From positions 73,311-109,797 of the forward strand of contig MU657301.1 in assembly GCA_026770575.1 (NCBI GenBank): a stretch of 36,487 nucleotides of DNA. Reading direction: 5' to 3'. This stretch comes from Pelagophyceae sp. CCMP2097. Lineage: Eukaryota > Sar > Pelagophyceae. Both the position numbers and the translations under genes were made by a program. This document shows positions 18,697 to 35,780 of this stretch, piece by piece. The notes beneath the pieces were generated by a model. The model was not told the DNA's origin. It ran no database searches and worked only from the letters and a program-made list of their open reading frames with translations. Numbering within the stretch: the first letter of the stretch is position 1; each line of letters starts with the position of its first letter.

Positions 18697-21604
18697 TCAC
18701 GCATCATCGAAGTCTTCGTACTCTAGATTGAACATCATCTCCGTCTCGAAATCGTCGGCCTTAGAAGATTCTTGGCAGGCTCGCTTGACGACGCCGTTGA
18801 TCAGGCAGAGGACCATGGCCGCCGCCGAGATAAAAACAAAGAGCAAAATCGTGTCCCGATCCGACGCCGATCTCGACGAGCCGTCGTCCACGTCCGTCGG
18901 CAGCAGAGTCAGCCCCGTCACGGGCGTCAAAGTCGGCCCGGGCGTCCCCGGGACCCTCGGCGCGACGCTCGGCGCAAGGGTGGGTGCGCCAGTCGGCCGA
19001 GAGGACGGCGCGAGAGTCGGCGCGGAGGACGGCAGCGGAGTCGGCGCGGATGATGGAGCCAGAGTTGGGATGGAAGTCGGCTCTGCGCTCGGCACCGCCG
19101 TCGGCACCGCTGTCGGTTCACGAGTCGATGCCGAGCTCGGTACTGCAGTCGGCGCCGCGGTCGGCCCTCGAATCGGTGCCGAAGACGGCAGCGCACTCGG
19201 AGTGCTCGTCGGCCGAGACGACGGTGCGTTTGTCGGGATGGACGACGGCCGGGACGACGGTGCGTTTGTCGGGATGGACGAAGGCACCGAGGCTGGGATG
19301 GAAGTCAGCTCGGTCGTCGGGGTCGCGCTCGGCACCGCAGTCGGCGCCGCCGTTGGTCCACTCGTTGGTCCATAGGATGGTAAGCTCGTCGGGATGGACG
19401 AAGGCGCCGTTGAGGTGGGTGCGAGTGTCGGCGTGGGCGTGGGTGCGGGAGTCGGCACGTAAGTTGGCGTGCGAGTCGGCGCGTAAGTCGGCACATGAGT
19501 TGGCGCGAGAGTCGGCGCGTAAGTCGGCACGTGGGTTGGCGCAGGCGACGGTGCGCGAGTCGGTGGCAGCATCGGCGCGAGCGTCGGCACGTGCGTTGGT
19601 GCGGGCGTCGGCGCGAGCGTCGGCACGCGAGTTGGAGGCAGCGTTGGCGCGAGCGTCGGCGCGCGAGTCGGCAGCAGAGTGGGTGCGAGCGTCAGCGTGG
19701 GCGTCGGTGGGGGCGTCGGCGTCGGCGTCGGCAGAAACGTCGGCGGCCGCGTCGGCGTGCGATTCGGCGCGCGAGTTGGTCTCCACGAGGGCGTGTGGGT
19801 CGGCACGCGAGTCGGTCTCAGCGTCGGCGGCCGCGTCGGCGCGCGAGTCGGTCTCCGCTTCGGCGCGCGGGTCGGCGGCCGCGTCGGTGGCCGCGTCGGC
19901 GTGCGAGTCGGCGCGTAAGTTGGCACATGAGTCGGAGCGTAAGTTGGCGCGTAAGTTGGTGGCAGCGTCGGAGCGAGCGTTGGCGCGCGAGTCGGTCTCA
20001 GCGTCGGTGCGAGGGTCGGCGGCCGCGTCGGCGGCCGCGTCGGCGTGCGAGTCGGTCTTCGCGTCGGCGTGCGAGTCGGCGGCCGCGTCGGCGCGCGAGT
20101 CGGTCTCTGCGTCGGCGTGCGAGTCGGCGCGGGAGTCGGTCTCCGCGACGGCGGCCGCGTCGGCGGCCGCGTCGGCGCGCGGGTCGGCGCGGGCGTCAGC
20201 GCACCAGTGGATTCTCGTCTGTGCGTGTTTCGCAGCCTACGCGGCGGCCCTCTTTGTCGGGCGCCGGGCTTTTTAGGGCGCACCATCCGACAAGGCCGGC
20301 CCTGCGGCAGCAGTAGGCGACGTCGAGACGGCCGTCGCCGTCGACGTCTGCGACGACGAGCATGTCTACGACTTTGCGGTTCGGTTGCTTGACGTCGTCT
20401 GCGCACTTTGGCGCGACGTTTACGCGCGTCGGCGGGCCGAAGTTGCGGCCGCCGAGGTTTTCGACGGTGTAGAGCGCGACGTCTCGGCAAGCGCTGAAGA
20501 CGACGTCGACGTCGCCGTCGCCGTCAAAGTCAGCGCACCGCACGGAGAACGCGCGCGCCGCGCCGACGAAGAGCGGCTGCGCGGCAGAGAACGTTCGGCC
20601 TCCGCCGCCCCAGTGCACGACGACGGCGACTGCGGCGACGAACTTGGAAGTCGCGAGGACGTCGAGCCGGCCGTCACCGTCAAAGTCGGCGACGCAGATC
20701 TCGCGGTTGCCCGTGCCGGCCGGCTGCAGCGCCACGCTGTCTGCGGCGGCGAACGAACCGTCGCCGCGGCTGTTGTAGAAGACGCGCAGCGCGGCCTCGT
20801 CGGACGCCACGACGACGTCGAGGTTACCGTCGCCGTCGACGTCGGCGGGCAGCGCGTAGTGCGCGCCCGTGAGGTCCGCGTCGACGGCGTGGGCCGTGTG
20901 GGGCGCGCAATCGCCGCCGCCCTGAAGCGATTCACCGGCGACCCAGAACGTGCCCGCCTGCGTTGCGACGAAGACGTCGTTGGCGCGGCCGTTTCCGTCG
21001 ACGTCCGCCGCATAGACGCCGTGCGCCGCCCCCGGCGCGCAAAAGGCGCGGCGCGGCCGCAAAAGGCTCGCGTCGCCGCGCGCGTTCTCGTACCACAGGC
21101 CGCCGCCGTTGCCGCCCCAGACCACGTCGAGGTCGCCGTCGAGGTCCATGTCCGCGACGGCCAAGACGCGGCCTACGCCCGCCGCCTCGTAGCGCACGTC
21201 CCACCCGCCGCCGCCGCCGCCGCTCAGCGCGACGTAGAGGCGCTGGCTGGCCTTGGTCACCCAGACGAGGTCCGGCGAACCGTCGCCGTCGAGGTCGCCG
21301 CTGGCGAGGCCGTTGACGAAGTGGTTGTCCGGGCCGGGGAAGTCGTCGTCCCAGACGGGAGCCTCGTCCCGGAACGAGAGCAGGCCCGCGGCGCCGCACC
21401 AAAAGCCGCACCTGTCGCCGCGCGGCATGGCAGGCCGCGTGGGATCACGTATCCCATCAGCCCACGTTGGAACGTCGAACCCCCTGCGGTATGAGATGCC
21501 AGATTGGAATCCCATGGTCCCGAGAGGCTTGGCTGTATCCCATGATCAAAGATCCCACGCGGATTCTCGGGGCCGCACCAGAGGCCGAGCAGCCGCCGGC
21601 GCAT
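18697..21604 (-). CDS. FG-GAP/VCBS-repeat surface protein with Pro-Thr stalk and C-terminal membrane anchor
   Basis: Exons 21604-21579, 21411-20284 and 20236-18697 on the minus strand, about 897 aa. Splicing of intron 1 joins MRRRLLGLW to CGFWCGAAGLL, giving a good signal peptide. Seven calcium-loop repeats follow (DLDGDGSPD, DMDLDGDLD, DVDGNGRAN, DVDGDGNLD, DFDGDGRLD, DFDGDGDVD, DVDGDGRLD), suggesting a seven-bladed integrin-like propeller. A 47-bp intron then joins VGW to LRNTHRRESTGALTPAP, opening a stalk of over 300 residues built of xPTxxPT units, probably O-glycosylated. One membrane helix (TILLFVFISAAAMVLCLING) and a short acidic tail (ENMM-like FETEMMFNLEYEDFDD) end the protein. The architecture is that of a cell-surface adhesin or cell-covering protein. 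An upstream in-frame ATG lies at 21670. Confidence 0.82.
18960..20210 (-). repeat. Coding repeat array for Pro-Thr stalk
   Basis: On the minus strand the units are mostly variations of 12 bases encoding PT plus two residues, often one arginine or one alanine (APTR, PPTR, APTL, VPTY). Units are near-identical between about 19440 and 20210 and degenerate to Ser/Thr/Pro-rich towards 18960. Such arrays change length easily by slippage, so copy number probably varies between strains. Confidence 0.8.
21435..21562 (-). mobile_element. Introner-like element, copy B
   Basis: Perfect 12-bp terminal inverted repeats CCGCGTGGGATC (21435-21446) and GATCCCACGCGG (21551-21562) bound 128 bp lying within the proposed first intron (21578-21412, minus) of the FG-GAP gene. 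The right flank of each splice boundary repeats GGTGCGGC (8 bp), resembling a target duplication. It is homologous to copy A in the opposite orientation to its host gene, and to the truncated copy C at the right window edge. Confidence 0.6.
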
Positions 21605-27349: not shown

Positions 27350-30241
27350 TTAGGGAGTCCGATACGGTGCTGCCGTGGTCTCTGCCCCTGCGGCTGTCGC
27401 GTCGGCGAGGATCACCCGCGCCTCGTGGGGCGCGGGGGACTCGAACATTGGCGGAGAGGCGCCGTCATCATCTCTGGGCCGTAGCGCCTCCGGGTCGTCG
27501 GGCCGAGGCGCCTCCGGGTCGTCGTCGTCGGAGAAGTTGAAACTCGGTGCACGGTCCCGCAGCGGCGTCTTCATCGGCGTCTCCATCGGCGTGCCCTCGG
27601 TGGCGACGCCGGCGGTGTCGGTGGCGTCGGCCTCGGCAGCGCCGCCGTCGGCGCCGTCGGCGGCGCCAGCCTCAACGTCGTCGCCGGCGTCGGTGTCGTC
27701 GGGGCCGTCGGCCACAGCAGCGTCGTCGTCGGCGTCTTCAAAGTCGTCGTCGGCTTCCTCAGCACCGTTGGCCACGGCGTCGTCGGCGGCGGCGGCGCTG
27801 TTGGCCACGGAGACCCCGGCGTCGTCGTCGTCGTCGTCTTCAAAGTCGTTTTCGTCGGCTTCCTTTAACTCGGCCTCCACCTCAGCCCTTTTTCGCTCCT
27901 TTTTCACCGTGGGCTGCTGGGGCGCGAGGACGTAGCGCATGTCCTGGATGAAGTCGCGCATGGCCAAATTGTCCGTCATGCGGACGACGGAGGGCGGCTT
28001 GAAGTTGGGCTGCCACTCGTCTGGCGAGAAGACGTACGAGTGCACCACGCTGGCCACAAACATCTCGACGCAGATCAAGAAGTTCTGCACCGCCTCTGCC
28101 AGCTCGGACTGCAGGGCGTTTTCCCGCGTCAGCGCCCAGATGACGGAACCTTGCCAGAAGGTGATGAAGACGACGCCTTTTACGCAGCAAAACTTTGGCC
28201 ACGGCGCGTGGCTCTCCAAATAATGCGCCGTGGCGTGGTAGACCTTTAAGAGGCCGGAGACGGCGACGGTCACGGAGAGGTTCGCCAAGACGAAGATGAC
28301 GAGCTTGGCGTCGGAGACCCACTGCGGCCGGTCCCGGTCGGAATAGTACTGCGCGTCGGCGCAGACGACCACGTACGCAGCGACGGAGAGGAGCGGCTTG
28401 CAGAGCACGAACTGCATCACGGCGACCATGCACTGCCTTAAAAAGGACCTCGGCGACGCTTTTCGGCCGCAGGGTGGGCAAAACGCGTACGGCAGGTGCG
28501 CTGACCCGTCCGCCTCCAGGCGCGCGACGAAGCGCGAGTACGGGTCCCGCCGCAGCAAAGCGCGGCCGCCCGGCGACGCGTCGCCCGCCAGAGCCTCGTC
28601 GCCGCCGACGATGCTGACCAAAAACGAGACAAAGACCCAGATGGTGTACGCCTCGTAGCCGTCTCTGACCATGGCCAAACCCGCCGCCGCCGCCGGGTAG
28701 AGCAGCGAGAGCCAGCAGCAGAGCGAGTAGATGGGCGGCATCCACAGGATGGCCAGGATCTTGCGCTGGATCTCGGGGTAGCGGAACTTGCGCGTGTGAG
28801 AGTAGACGCCCGACAGCGAAATGAGGAAGCAGAGCAGCGTAAAAGTGCCCGCGATCCAGTGGTAGATCAGGTCGCGCTCCGAGTCCAGCTTGATCTACGC
28901 ATGCGCGCCAAGTCCGGGCCGCGCAAAGCCCGTCGGTGCGCGCAATGCCGCTTCGGGCCGATTACCGCTTCCATGACGCCTCGAGGCTGCGCCGCCAAAA
29001 AGAGCGCCCAAAGAATCCTTTGGCATCGTCGGCCCAACTGACCTGCGTCGTCTCGCGGTAGTCGCCGAGCGCGTCCCGCAGCTCCTCGACGCGGCCGTTG
29101 AGGCGCGCCTCGACGCCGCCGGCCTGCGCGTCCGCGTAGCCGTGCGCCTCTATAGAGCTCTTGCCAACGTCCTTGAGCAGCTCCACATTGTCCGCCTCCT
29201 CGCGCGCAGCCGTGGCGTTCACCCGCCCGTCGAGCCGCGCGCCCTGCCGAGCCTAGGGGGGAAGCTTACGCGACGCGTGTCGTGGACGAGCAGGGGGGGT
29301 CGTTCGAGCGCCGCGGGGATCCCGCGACGGCTTTTTAACGCGTTGCGCGGCGTCCTTGCGGATTTTGGGGCCGCGCTTTGGACGCACCAGCGCGGCGGCC
29401 TCCGCGGCGTCCTGCGCCTCGAGCTGCGCGGAGAGTTCGTTCATCTGGTCGCGCAGGTCAAGGTCCGGGTCGCTCTCGTGAATGTCGCTGCGCAACGTAT
29501 TGATCTCCGCCTAGAGTCGATGGTCGAAGCGGTGCTGGGCCGTGACACCGACCCGCAAAGGCCGCGTCTCCTCCCTCGGCGACGCGCCTCCATCGAGTCG
29601 AGCCTGGCGCTCATTTTCGCATTCGACGCCTCGAGGCGCGCCGCCCGCTGCTCCGCGTCGCGCGCCTAGTTCCAAGGAGGCCCGTGCGCGCAGGGGCCGG
29701 CTCGTCTGCGCCATCGACTCTGTCGCCAAGGAGGCGTACGTCAGCGAGCGCGGCCTAGTGGGGTCTCGTTCAAGGGTCGCAGTGGCGTCTCGCTCAGGGG
29801 CCGCGGCGGCGATCGGCGGCTCCGGGCCGATGGCACGCACCGCGGCGCTCTGCGCGGCGTGCTCGGCGAGTTCGGTGTTGTTGCGGACGAGGCCCTGGAG
29901 GCGGTGGACCTCTTCTCTTTGCGCGGCGTCGCGCGCCTCGTGCTTCGCAATCTTGCGGCGCCACTCGGCCACGTCCGGGTACGTCCACTTGCCGTCCCGG
30001 CTCGTCAGGCCAAAGGCGCCGAGCCTATGCGCGGCGTGCCCGCGTCGCCGGCGGCAAACGCGACGGACCTCGAGAGCGCGGCGATGGCGAGGCACGCCGC
30101 CAAGAGGAAGCCGCAGACGCGCACGGCGCGCGTCGCCCGCCGGCGCAGCGGTGCCGGCGGCTCGGCCGCCGGCCGCCCGGCCGCCTCGAGGAGGTCTGCC
30201 GCCTCGGCCGCGGTAGATGGGCCCCGCCGCCGCTGCATCAT
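27350..30241 (-). CDS. Membrane-anchored coiled-coil protein fused to TMEM184/OST-alpha domain
   Basis: Exons 30241-30069, 30024-29841, 29665-29588, 29510-29388, 29252-29043 and 28894-27350 on the minus strand, about 770 aa. It starts MMQRRRGPS, with a membrane helix RVCGFLLAACLAIAALSR (about 41-58), then a long coiled coil across exons 2-5 (EWRRKIAKHEARDAAQREEV; ARLEASNAKMSARLDSME; QMNELSAQLEAQDAAEAAAL; NGRVEELRDALGDYRETTQ). Exon 6 holds the TMEM184/OST-alpha domain: HWIAGTFTLLCFLISLSGVY, KPLLSVAAYVV, VYHATAHYLE, KFCCVKGVVFITFWQGSV and NFLICVEMFVASVVHSYVF. A ~200-residue acidic tail follows. OST-alpha transports organic solutes; TMEM184 proteins are poorly understood. No ATG opens the last exon upstream of its first helix, which supports the fusion. 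The exon 3 donor appears to be GC. Only 233 bp separate it from SBNO. Confidence 0.75.
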
Positions 30242-30474: not shown

Positions 30475-33400
30475 ATGGACGCCGCCGCGGCGCGCGTCCT
30501 GGCGCGGGCCGGCTCGCCGCCGAACTCGAACCTCCACCAGGCCGTGCGCGACCTCCTCGTCAAGGAGGCGCGGTCGGGCAAGACGAGCGACCAGGTACAC
30601 CCTCCCCACCGGCCGACTCCGCCTCTCCGATTCCGCGACGACGGCTCGCCCCGCTCCGAGGCATTTTCGCGAGGCGGTCCGTAGGCCGAGGCGGCGGTGC
30701 TGGCGATCCTGGTGCCAAAGTCGGAGCAAAAGTCGGCCAAGGCTTCCAAGGCGGCTCGCGGCGAGGACGACGAAAACGCTGTGGAGGAGGAAATCGAAGC
30801 CGAGGTCTTTGCGCACTACCGATGCGGCCTCTCGGCGACGTTTGCCTGCGGCAAGCAGCCGCTGCCGCACCCGGGCGACATCGCCGAGTCGAATCTGCTG
30901 GCTTCGGTGCCCATGCCACGGCTGACGTACGACACTCAAGCGCTGGACGGGTGCGCCGACCGCGGCACGCTATCCGAACTGCAGCTCGAGGGCGTCTTGC
31001 ACGCCTGCCAGCGGCACACGGTGCTCACGGGCGGCGTGCGCTCAGGGTTCTTCCTCGGCGACGGGGCGGGCGTGGGCAAGGGCCGACAAATCGCCGCCAT
31101 CGTTTTGGACAACGTCGCGCGCGGCCGAGGCAAGCACGTCTGGTTTTCGATAGCATCGGACCTCCGCCTGGACGCGGAAAGGGACCTCGGCGACGTGGGG
31201 TGCCATGTCGGCGTCGTCGACGGTTGCAATTCCCTCGACGCGCTATCGAAACTGGCCTTTGGCGGCGCGGCGGCCAAGCGCGGCGTCCTCTTTTCGACGT
31301 ACTCGACTCTGATATCGACGCTCTCGAGCAAGGGCCCGCGCCTCGAGCAGCTGGTGAATTGGTGCGGCGGACCCGCCTTCGAGGGGTGCATCATCTTCGA
31401 CGAGGCGCACAAGGCCAAGAACTACAACGCCACCAACGCCGAGGCCTCGACGAAAGTGAGCGCCGCCGTGATAGCGCTCCAGGACCAGCTGCCGCGCGCC
31501 AGAATCGTCTACGCCTCGGCGACGGGCGTCACTGAAATCACCAACATGGCGCACGCGACCGCGCCCGTGCAACCCGGGGCCCTCGCGGGGACGAGAGATC
31601 ACCGAGCGGCGTCGCAGAGGTGACGTGCCGGCGCTAGGTACGCGACGCGCCTGGGCCTGTGGGGTGCTGGCACGGCGTTCGAGACGTTCAAGGGCTTTGC
31701 GGAGACGATGGAGAAGCGCGGCGTCGGCGCTTTGGAGATGCTCGCGCTGGAGCTCAAGGTCTCTGGGGCCTACGTCTCGCGCGGCCTGAGCTGGCAAAAG
31801 TGCGAGTTTGATCACCTCAAGTGCGCTTTGCCCTCTGACCGGCGGGCCATGTACGACCGCCTCGCGGCGTGGTGGCGCGCTTTGCGGCGCGCGTTGGGGC
31901 ACGCTCTAAAGGTCGCGAACATGGCCAAGGGCGGCCCCGTCTGGCAGCGCTTCTGGGGCACGCAGCTGCGGTTCTTCAAAGAAGTCCAGACGTCGTGCAA
32001 GGTCCCCTTCGTCGTCGCCGAGGCCAAAGCCGCTTTAGCTGCGGGCCAGTGCGTCGTCATCGGCCTGCAGTCCACCGGCGAGGCGGGCCTCGACGCGGTG
32101 ATGCGCGAAATGGGCAAGCAGCCGGGCGACACGGTCAAGGACTTTGTCGCTGCTGCAAAGGTGGCCGCGCGCCAGTACGTGCTGCAGTTCTTTCCAATCG
32201 CCGAGGAGAAGGCGCTGGTGCCCGTGCCCGACGACGACGTCCTCGCGCGGCTGCTGCAGGTGGACCGCCGGCCGCCGCCTACATCGGCGGACGTGGCTCG
32301 CCACCGCCGCTTTTTGGAGCAGGCCAACGCGGCCCCGCAGCGCGAGGTCGAGGAGCTCGTCCTGCTGCGCGCGGACTGCCTCGCCGCCCTCGAGGCTTTG
32401 GACGTGCCGTGCTCGCCGCTGGACGCGCTGGTGGACGCCTTTGGCGGCCCTTCGGCGGTCGCGGAGATGACTGGCCGGTCGGCGCGAATCGTGCGCGTCG
32501 ACGGCCGGCTGCGCTACGAGGCGCGTCTGGCGACGGACAAGGACCAGTCCTTGAACGTGCGCGAGCGCAAAGCGTTTATGGCGGGGAAGAAGCGCGTAGC
32601 CATCATCTCCGACGCGGCTTCTACGGGCATCTCGCTCCACGCCGCCGTCGGCGCGCCTTCTGAGAATCTCCGAAGAGTCCACATCACGCTGGAACTCGCA
32701 TGGTCGGCGGACAAGTCGATTCAGCAGCTCGGTCGGTCGCACCGCGCCAACGAACGAAGTGCCCCTCTATACAAGCTCGTGACGACGGATTTAGCCGGCG
32801 AGTCGCGGTTTGGGGCCGCGGTGGCGAAGAGGCTTTCTTCGCTCGGCGCTTTGACAAAGGGAGACAGGCGCGCCGCCTCGGGCCAGGACATGTCTGATTT
32901 CGAAGTAGATACGTATCACGGCCGCCAGGCCCTGACGAAGCTCAGCGAGGCGTGCAATAACCGCTTCGAGAACAAAGTCGCCTACGGCCTCGACGCTCAG
33001 GCCCCGGCAAACGCTGCGCTGTACGCCGCGCTCGACTCCGCGCTGGAAGAGCACAAAGCGGCGCCGCGCAGGCCGTCCGACTCGGACTTTGTCGCGCGCT
33101 TCGCCACGGGCGCCGACGACGTCGACGACGCGGGCGGCGCGAGTATGGACGACCACCTCGCTGGCGACGACGCCACCTCGGTGGCGCTGCGCCTGGTCGT
33201 GCTGGCGAAGAAGGCTTATAGTGAACTCGACGTCGACCCGAAAAAGGGAGGCGACGTGCGCACGTTTCTGAACCGGCTCCAGTCGCTCTCCGTCTCCGGC
33301 CAGGCGCTGCTCTTCGAGTACTTCTCCGCATGCCACCGCGCCGTCATCGCCGACGCGCGCGCCAACGGCACGCTCGACGCCGGCGTCACGGACCTGCGCG

Positions 33401-34641
33401 CGGCTTCCGCGGTCGTCGAGTCGCAGGAAGTCGTCGGCGTCGACGCCGTCTCCGGCGCCGAGACGAATTTGTACGCGGTGACGCTGGACCGCGGCGTCTC
33501 GTTTGCGCAGGCTTGCGAGAAGCTGGCCGCGGCCAAGCAGCACGACGAAGACCAGGCTTCGTCGTCGGACCTCCGCGACGCGAGCCCCGCCGCGAAGAAG
33601 CGGCGGTCGACGGCGTCGGCCGAGGCGTTCCGCGGCACGGGGTTCTACGTCTCGCGCCGGCCGCTGCCGTCGACGCGCAGCCACGGGATTCTGCTGGCGG
33701 TGCAAAAGGCCAACAACCGCAGCTCGTATGTCGTCACTCGGCCCAACACTGGCACGTCGCCGTTTGAAATGCCTCGCAACGAACTCCACGAAAAGTACGC
33801 CGCCCACACCGCGTCGTGGCAGTTGGACGAAACCGCCGACGCCGAGTCCGCGTTGGCGGCGGCGGGCCCGTCCGCGTTGTGGGCAGCGGGCCAAAAAGCG
33901 CTCGAGGAGGCGTGGACGGCGCAGTATACGGCTGCGGACTCTACTGCGCGCGGGTCGCGGCGGTTCCAGATCGGCTTGGTATCGGGCGCGGTGCTCCCGT
34001 TTTGGCGCGCGCTGGAGCGGACAGTCATCGAGTACCGCGACGAAATGTCGCGCGCGGAGCAGGGCTTAAAGGTCTGCCGCGTCATTCTGGACGACGGCAC
34101 CAAGCTCGTGGGCATCCGCTTCCCGAAGGCGGTACTCGGGCCGTTGAAGGCCAACCTCGCGAGTGCCCACGAGCTCCGCGCCGAGCACGCGCGCAGCGCC
34201 GTCTCCGCCGAGCTGCCGACGCCCGTCGACGCCGCCGCGCTCCGGGTCGCGTCGACCAGGCCGCGAACCATCACGTCGTTCTTCAAGGCCGCCGCCGCGC
34301 CCGCGGTGCCTTTCAGCGCGCCCGCCGCGCCCGCCGACGCGCCCGCCGCGCCCGGCGGCAAGCCGGCGCCGGTCCGCCGGCAGCGCTCCTCAGGCGGCTC
34401 GGCGTCGTCGGCGTCGGCGTCGTCGAAGCCGGCTTCGTCGTCGGCTTCGAAGCGCAGCGCGCCGTCCATCGCGGGCTTCTTCGGCGCGCCAAAGCCGCCT
34501 GCCGGCGCCGCCGCGGCCGCCGTGGCTGCCGGCAGGCCGCCGCCCGTCGAGTTTTCCATCTGTCCGTGCTGCGAAGACCTCGTCGAGACGACGCGGATCA
34601 ACGACCACTTGGACAACCACTGCAAGGCCGCCAAGGACTGA
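30475..34641 (+). CDS. Strawberry-notch (SBNO) helicase-like protein with PIP-like boxes and C-terminal UBZ-like finger
   Basis: Exons 30475-30594, 30685-31550 and 31638-34641, about 1329 aa. Superfamily 2 helicase motifs: Walker A LGDGAGVGKGRQIAAI (K about 172), DEAH box IIFDEAHKAKN (about 279-282), YASATG, then after splicing NMAYATRLGLWGAGTAFETF and MEKRGVGALEMLALELK, typical of SBNO. The C-terminal helicase half has VAIISDAASTGISLHA and QLGRSHRANERSAPLY, then LAGESRFGAAVAKRLSSLGA. The tail carries TRPRTITSFFKA (about 1202-1213) and APSIAGFFGA (about 1270-1279), both PCNA-box-like, and ends with CPCCEDLVETTRINDHLDNH, a UBZ4-like finger. SBNO is a nuclear transcription and signalling regulator in animals; the tail suggests recruitment to ubiquitinated replication forks. 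Intron 2 (31551-31637) needs a GC donor. Confidence 0.92.
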
Positions 34642-35780
34642 CGCCGTGCAGCAAAGCGCGGGATTCGCCGGGAAGGCGACATTGGGCAGGAGGCCTTGGA
34701 AGCCACCACCCCGACATCGATAAAGACTTGACTGGAGTCTCGCGTCCCTCTCGACGGCTCGCACAACGGGACCGCGTCGAGCGCGTCCGAGGTCCCGCAG
34801 CTCTCGACGTCCGCGACGACGCAGCCTAGTAAACCAAATTAGATCAGCCGTTTTTTTGCGATTTTTTGGGCGAACATCCTGCCAAAATCCTATCGACCGG
34901 AAAGTGTAGGAGGCCTAGCCAGAGGGAGTTTTTCGACGATGACATGGAGAGGCGCCCCCTCCATGTGACCGTCGTAAAACCTCCCTCGAGCTAGGCCTCC
35001 TATATTCTCCGATCGATAGGGTTGATAGGATATCGCTAAAATGCATTACCCTTTTGGTCGACAACTTGGACTTGATTGAAAAACAATAAAAACCCAATAA
35101 AATCTCACGAGAAAACCAGAACGGACCTAAAAAATGTTAACGCCATTGGACTCGATTGGAGGCTGATTTGATTTGGACTGGACGCGCGAAATTTGATTTG
35201 GACTGATGGAGACCCCAGCGGACTGCCAGGACGAGGTTGTTCGGAGGATTTGCTTGCGGTCCTTACACACATTAGCGGCGAACAGTAACCTTTCCCCGTC
35301 GCGGTACGACACGTCCATCGGAGCGAGGCGCCGCGGTGGCGCCGGACGCGGCTGCGGCGGCATCGCTTAGTTTGAAAAATGTGGCGTTCGCGGCTGGCGC
35401 TGCGCTGCGGCGCGCTGCGCGTCGGTGGCTGCGCCGCGCTGGACCTTGTTTTAGAACGCGCTGTAAAAGGTCCCCGACCATGCGAAACGTTTCCCGAGGA
35501 TGCAATTACAAAACAATATCTTAGAAAACGCCCTACGAAGTTTTGTGGAACACGGCCGTACGCACGCGGCGTTGGGGGGCAGCGCGACGCCCGCGCGCGC
35601 GCGCCATGCCACGGAAGAACGCCGGACGGGGGGGCAGTGCGCAGCGGGTCCAAGTACGATTGGCTGCAACGGCGACGTCTAACGAAGAGCGCATCGGCTC
35701 GGGACTTATCGAATCGTACGGCTTCTTGACCGTGGCCTGCGACCGAGGCGCTTTCTGCGACCCGGACGGTGGCATCGTAG
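34642..35780. other. Long region without a recognised gene
   Basis: Between the SBNO stop and the partial gene. It contains a 132-bp hairpin element (34889-35020), an AT-rich stretch (35040-35110), a direct repeat of GATTTGATTTGGACT-type sequence (35163-35205), and possible 5' exons of the following gene. An ATG at 35379 opens a protein-like stretch (MWRSRLALRCGALRVGG) that might be an organelle-targeting first exon, but no junction to a later exon could be established. Confidence 0.4.
34889..35020. repeat. 132-bp near-palindromic foldback element
   Basis: The left arm starts CCTATCGACCGGA and continues through GTAGGAGGCCTAG, GAGGGAG and ACATGGAG; the right arm is its imperfect reverse complement, ending CCGATCGATAGG. 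Arms are about 65 bases with essentially no loop, so either strand can fold into one long hairpin. It may be a foldback MITE or produce a hairpin RNA. No clear target duplication was found. Confidence 0.75.

Follow-up and report, generated by a model that had tools for sequence, protein, structure and literature searches.

An SBNO-like helicase of Pelagophyceae sp. CCMP2097 with PIP-like motifs and a UBZ4-type zinc finger in a C-terminal tail shared by a separate SBNO branch

Gene structure and C-terminal tail of the SBNO-like protein

We analyzed a stretch of 36,487 nucleotides from the alga Pelagophyceae sp. CCMP2097 (GenBank assembly GCA_026770575.1, contig MU657301.1, positions 73,311 to 109,797; hereafter the window), which contains a gene for a helicase of the strawberry notch (SBNO) family. 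The C terminus of the encoded protein carries two motifs resembling the PCNA-interacting peptide (PIP) and a zinc finger of the ubiquitin-binding UBZ4 type. This kind of tail is common among SBNO relatives, which form a branch apart from the FORGETTER1-type proteins, and the branch is apparently undescribed as far as the open literature goes. The features of the gene are as follows.

30475..30594, + strand: exon 1 of the SBNO-like gene, residues 1 to 40, read from the sequence and in agreement with the annotated protein P0002
30685..31550, + strand: exon 2, most of the AAA_34 domain (Pfam AAA_34, 277.1 bits, E = 1.8e-82)
31057-31083, + strand: Walker A-like motif GDGAGVGKG in exon 2
31399-31410, + strand: DEAH motif in exon 2
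31638..34641, + strand: exon 3 including the stop codon, in frame from 31639, with the end of AAA_34, Helicase_C_4, the SBNO alpha/beta region and the tail
32416..33393, + strand: Helicase_C_4, the C-terminal domain of strawberry notch (PF13871, 287.5 bits, E = 1.7e-85)
33637..33804, + strand: SBNO alpha/beta domain (PF25373), a weak Pfam match (23.3 bits against a curated cut-off of 24)
34261..34284, + strand: PIP-like motif 1, PRTITSFF, residues 1204 to 1211, without Gln
34459..34482, + strand: PIP-like motif 2, APSIAGFF, residues 1270 to 1277, without Gln
34561..34623, + strand: UBZ4-type zinc finger CPCC..HLDNHC with putative ligands C1304, C1307, H1319 and C1324

The three exons sum to 3990 bases and encode 1329 residues plus the stop codon, the same length as the annotated P0002 of this species, to which the query frame matches at 100%. 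The second intron (31551-31637) is of the GC-AG type, with GC rather than GT at its 5' end, and is consistent with P0002. AAA_34 is detected in two pieces, with 277.1 bits in exon 2 and a further 78.5 bits where exon 3 opens (Pfam cut-off of 27), and Helicase_C_4 clears its cut-off of 30.5 by a wide margin. The ATPase core belongs to superfamily 2, and its motifs look intact. Both FF motifs and the finger lie in frame with this core within the single open exon 3, with no stop or frame change between them, and the tail forms the C-terminal end of P0002. The tail, as given in the preliminary description of this DNA, is therefore a real part of the protein.

Conservation of the tail and its separation from FORGETTER1-type proteins

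To survey relatives, we used the window protein and P0068, a EukProt transcript taken to be from Euglena, as queries in two protein searches, both of which included the tail. The best 120 of 308 matches to the former and the best 120 of 1100 matches to the latter gave 188 different proteins, which were reduced to 143 representatives. Of these, 135 entered the tail counts; the other eight, which are fragments or truncated models, have tails shorter than 90 residues. Each of the 135 tails contains a PIP-like motif (9.1 expected from shuffled tails), the strict form [TSG][ILVM]xx[FY][FYW] is present in 129 (1.5 expected), and the UBZ4 pattern occurs in 66 (0.0 expected). By name, the tail-bearing relatives include pelagophytes, brown algae, diatoms, oomycetes, prasinophytes and other green algae, as well as a placozoan, sponges, cnidarians, molluscs, nemerteans, bryozoans, echinoderms and amphioxus. 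Closest to the window protein are six others, P0003 to P0008, which have a tail of the same kind at 47–53% identity; P0008 is a transcriptome open reading frame from MMETSP that is marked complete. The preliminary description knew of no SBNO protein with such a tail, which proved wrong, and the homologue search that it proposed for stramenopiles finds the tail there and well beyond, in green algae, animals and euglenids.

The CCMP2097 genome contains three further SBNO-like loci, on contigs C90, C17 and C14, making four in all. The relatives of the C90 copy are plant FORGETTER1 proteins, and its exons as read end directly after the core. From 120 listed relatives of this copy we took 24 FORGETTER1-type representatives as a control and inspected 40 of the 120 tails. 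All 24 lack both a PIP-like motif and a finger in the 14–77 residues that follow the core, tails so short that the absence of motifs mainly reflects the absence of a tail, and the UBZ pattern is found nowhere in the 120 full proteins listed. For the C17 and C14 paralogues, no UBZ pattern was found in open frames of 100 or more residues within 9.5-kb stretches; the only two FF matches in those frames are on the strand opposite the paralogue.

A tree built from the core alone separates the 65 rows of the tail branch, including the window protein, from 14 FORGETTER1-type rows with a support of 100 in the Shimodaira-Hasegawa-like approximate likelihood ratio test (SH-aLRT). The tree comprises 79 rows picked by hand (65 of 188 and 14 of 120) and 935 columns with the tail left out. 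It was computed under LG+C20 with posterior mean site frequencies (PMSF) in quick mode, with SH-aLRT as the sole support measure; the ends of P0089, P0166, P0236 and P0239, four rows from beyond the set of aligned representatives, were left untrimmed and were excluded through the column filter only. By this computation, the window gene belongs to a second, seemingly ancient SBNO branch that is distinct from the FORGETTER1 branch. Among the FORGETTER1-type rows, a single animal is named, the quail (Colinus) record P0154, which is flagged UNVERIFIED_CONTAM, and for this reason the placement of animal SBNO1 and SBNO2 rests on the published orthology, in which Arabidopsis FORGETTER1 (FGT1) is described as the orthologue of animal Sno/SBNO1/SBNO2 (PMC5040591). 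Vertebrates, insects, nematodes and land plants are missing by name from the best 120 of the 1100 matches to P0068, and the tail branch is likely absent from these groups. In the open literature, judged by titles and the openings of abstracts, we found no description of PIP or UBZ elements in an SBNO protein.

The elements at the very end of the tail differ among lineages. When the 135 tails were classed by regular expressions, 66 had a UBZ finger, 20 a ubiquitin-associated (UBA) domain, 15 a SUMO-interacting motif (SIM) and 1 an NZF-like finger, and 33 fell into the class "none," which is an upper estimate, as P0029, P0071, P0086, P0077, P0096 and P0117 look UBA- or SIM-like by eye. Green-algal members end in UBA: precomputed Pfam annotation places UBA or UBA_7 in 22 of the 188 proteins and in 0 of the 120 FORGETTER1-type relatives listed, and the C terminus of P0093 matches UBA with a Pfam E value of 2.3e-12. 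The pelagophyte-group proteins P0009 and P0010 have, in place of the UBZ finger, a W-x-C-x2-C-T-Y...C-x2-C finger similar to NZF/RanBP2, which stays below the Pfam cut-off and has the TAB3 NZF as its best, weak match in the PDB (E = 0.15); P0009 is nested within the UBZ-bearing pelagophyte group of the core tree. SIM-like ends (VISIDDD, VDLVSDSD or IDLVSDDDD) are present in the brown algae Ectocarpus, Scytosiphon and Pylaiella, in Tribonema, and in 4 of 5 named oomycetes. A second SIM pattern recovered 12 of the 15 SIM-classed tails (P0017, P0294 and P0305 failed it), along with 1/66 UBZ, 0/33 "none," 0/20 UBA and 0/1 NZF tails, against an expectation of 0.37 across all 135. By the pattern used, the window protein has no SIM-like end. 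Named diatoms keep two PIP-like motifs with no recognizable reader. Overall, on the core tree the six tail states, of which "no tail" and "none" are two, require no fewer than 14 changes; four rows were set by hand for this count (P0109, P0111 and P0308 to UBA, P0089 to UBZ). The UBZ and UBA assignments are better supported than those of NZF and SIM.

Two other open frames and an inverted repeat were recorded in the window.

27350-28894, - strand: neighboring gene for an organic solute transporter alpha-like membrane protein (PF03619, E = 9.2e-66)
18697-20523, - strand: long open frame with tandem APTRAPTRPPT-like Pro/Thr/Arg repeats

The inverted repeat (34886-35023) lies roughly 245 bases past the SBNO stop codon and has arms of 48 nucleotides that are 83% complementary and 42 nucleotides apart. 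A 161-base query over it gave 88 genome matches, some of which are one site read from both strands; it looks like a family of miniature inverted-repeat transposons.

A proposed role at modified PCNA and competing explanations

PCNA is ubiquitinated at Lys164 by Rad6-Rad18, and ubiquitin and SUMO are the two marks known on it. We consider it probable that the tail branch is an ancient SBNO subfamily that reads PCNA marked by ubiquitin or SUMO. In such a mechanism, the PIP-like motifs would dock the ATPase on the PCNA ring while the C-terminal finger would read mono-ubiquitin on PCNA, and these two weak contacts might jointly bring the enzyme to forks that are stalled or gapped; there it would move on DNA and remodel the fork or its nucleosomes. 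On ubiquitinated PCNA, or on SUMO-modified PCNA in some lineages, the reader would strengthen the binding. The general rule would then pair a PCNA contact with a module that recognizes the ubiquitin or SUMO on PCNA, the slot being filled by UBA, NZF-like or SIM-like modules in relatives. The mechanism has its strongest indirect support in the resemblance of the replacement modules to readers of the two PCNA marks. Whether the subfamily is a dedicated motor at modified PCNA, in which the reader was swapped several times while the PCNA contact was kept, we judge to be an evenly balanced question. The preliminary description had placed the window protein at ubiquitinated PCNA; the wide conservation of the PIP-like and UBZ4 parts, the UBZ domains found by the finger profile described below and the alternative readers favor this suggestion, whereas the missing Gln of the PIP-like motifs does not. 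PCNA is expected in any eukaryote, and the lack of matches to PCNA_N and PCNA_C (PF00705 and PF02747) in the CCMP2097 genome, in the same type of search that found the four SBNO loci, likely arises because introns interrupt the gene or because it falls into an assembly gap.

A sister branch with a conserved tail of PCNA, ubiquitin and SUMO type offers a concrete, testable function for an SBNO ATPase. It suggests a replication-damage factor that was possibly lost from the vertebrate, fly, worm and land-plant models; if so, a damage-tolerance enzyme would be missing from the standard model organisms. An exchange of ubiquitin and SUMO readers at one protein end would serve as a natural experiment in the recognition of modified PCNA.

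The tail could instead read other ubiquitinated chromatin, such as ubiquitinated H2A/H2B or FANCD2, in a protein that, like FORGETTER1, would mainly remodel nucleosomes or co-activate transcription, with the PIP-like motifs serving only to bring it behind the fork. We regard this as unlikely, although it is the strongest of the competing explanations. FAN1 reads ubiquitinated FANCD2, and the window finger has the FAN1 spacing. SBNO proteins are treated as regulators of transcription or chromatin in PMC5040591 and PMC12289961: FORGETTER1 is reported at the promoters of active genes and in interaction with SWI/SNF and ISWI remodelers (PMC5040591), and the DNA damage that follows the loss of mouse Sbno1 is explained through Yeats4 expression (PMC12289961). 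However, the FORGETTER1-type proteins themselves lack the tail in 24/24 representatives, and the part of the tail that all 135 representatives of the other branch have in common is the PIP-like motif and not a ubiquitin reader.

The PIP-like motifs are the part of the PCNA proposal that is most open to dispute. Both TITSFF and SIAGFF have a hydrophobic residue at position 4 and aromatic residues at positions 7 and 8, as in the PIP pattern. Across the 135 representatives, the commonest letters of motif 1 are P-K-T-[IML]-x-[SDN]-F-F-K, with Thr in 120 and the second Phe in 133. What weighs against PCNA binding is the first position, where the defining Gln is replaced by Pro and Ala in the two window motifs and is present in only 5/135 motif 1 sequences, Pro being the commonest residue (96/135). 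The PIP boxes of the preliminary description thus hold in their hydrophobic and aromatic pattern and their conservation, but not in their Gln. This deviation would fit FF motifs that bind a partner other than PCNA, for example as a REV1-binding FF motif or a family-specific site, with the UBZ finger reading ubiquitin independently. We give this explanation a somewhat smaller chance than the previous one, since the remainder of the motif ([ST]-[ILM]-x-[SDN]-F-F-K) fits the PIP pattern and Gln does occur in the second motif of other members. UBZ-bearing members often have a second motif within 70 residues ahead of the finger, the FF motif counted there being motif 1 itself in some short tails. 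Within this distance, the Gln-containing form Qxx[ILMV]xxx[FM] is found in 33/66 (1.2 expected), while 17/66 have neither this form nor an FF-type motif. Among the readings of the PIP-like motifs, a predicted PCNA contact is the one that we favor.

The finger raises a similar question. When the last 37 residues of the window protein were searched as a single sequence, the best match was yeast Sgf73 (E = 2e-4), the WRNIP1 UBZ was matched only at E = 0.024, and the finger alone matched no Pfam model at its cut-off. Sgf73 also resembles the window finger in its predicted fold and has the same H-x4-C arrangement. When 18 family fingers, chosen by eye and leaving out P0005 with its H-x5-C spacing, were combined into a profile, the order in the PDB was different: the UBZ domains of WRNIP1 (1.1e-8) and RAD18 (3.1e-8) lead, the TAX1BP1 fingers (1.6e-5), Pol kappa (3.9e-5), FAAP20 (6.9e-5) and FAN1 (8.8e-5) are also matched, and Sgf73 is not among the 60 of 65 matches listed; with a profile of pelagophyte fingers, it reaches E = 0.26. 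A lysine-biosynthesis protein that partially matched the 18-finger profile (1.2e-5) is probably a chance hit. Both Cys residues, the Asn, the His, the Asp and the last Cys are invariant in the 18 aligned fingers, and Sgf73 has Glu where 18/18 have Asp. At E values up to 1, Pfam assigns UBZ_FAAP20 to 10/18 and zf-WRNIP1_ubi to 8/18 of these fingers. By these computations, the family finger is related to UBZ4 domains, and a structural zinc finger of the Sgf73 type without ubiquitin binding appears improbable. The AlphaFold2 model of the finger adopts a beta-beta-alpha fold (predicted local distance difference test score of 92.2, predicted template modeling score of 0.57); its structure comparison gave weak matches common to Sgf73 and others, which adds little at such a size.

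The Rad18-type UBZ4 finger of the preliminary description was confirmed in its putative ligands and its INxHLD motif (C1304, C1307, H1319 and C1324, with Asp1321), and Asp1321 is a candidate for the residue that contacts ubiquitin. The same account read the last Cys as replaced by His, which is probably wrong. The spacing of the window finger, C-x2-C-x11-H-x4-C, is that of FAN1, whereas the common UBZ4 form is H-x3-C, and FAN1 aligns to the pelagophyte profile without a gap over the finger. Extra residues before the last Cys occur in 7/66 UBZ members (P0002 to P0008; six with H-x4-C and P0005 with H-x5-C), and five of these seven are placed in the tree, where they group with P0009 (support of 100). 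In the six aligned fingers of the pelagophyte type, the residue preceding the last Cys is H, D, A, G, S and D. Because the spacing is that of FAN1 and this position varies, we read the His of DNHC as a probable insertion of a variable residue. Ubiquitin binding by the finger appears plausible from its kinship to UBZ4 domains.

Nothing was found in favor of an artefact of annotation or assembly, or of a fusion confined to one protein. This reading is rejected for the family and very improbable for the window protein, as a tail of the same kind ends P0003 to P0008, including the complete transcriptome frame of P0008.

Comparison with known systems

The window protein resembles FORGETTER1 and strawberry notch in its AAA_34 and Helicase_C_4 core. 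However, FORGETTER1-type proteins differ by ending 14–77 residues past this core, and Arabidopsis FGT1 is described as carrying a PHD finger, unlike the window protein (PMC5040591).

The UBZ4 domains of WRNIP1 and RAD18 are the nearest solved structures to the family finger profile, and the window finger differs from them by one extra residue ahead of the last Cys. WRNIP1 is an AAA+ ATPase, and RAD18 is a RING ligase. The UBZ4 finger of the nuclease FAN1 has the same ligand spacing with HLD as the window finger, but it is located near the N terminus (residues 47–68 of a 1021-residue chain), whereas the window finger is C-terminal.

ZRANB3, an SNF2 ATPase, and SPRTN, a SprT protease, each combine a PIP-type motif with a ubiquitin-binding zinc finger on an enzyme that acts on DNA. 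The window protein, with its PIP-type motif and finger of the ubiquitin-binding type, may work in a similar manner; neither an SNF2 ATPase nor a SprT protease domain was found in a Pfam scan of exons 2 and 3 (E up to 10). Srs2 is a UvrD-type helicase with a PIP-like motif and a C-terminal SIM. It is matched more closely by the brown-algal and oomycete relatives, in which SIM-like VISIDDD or IDLVSDDDD follows the PIP-like motifs, than by the window protein, which lacks such an end. We therefore file the window protein as an SBNO helicase of the tail-bearing subfamily, and not as a member of the ZRANB3, SPRTN, FAN1 or Srs2 families.
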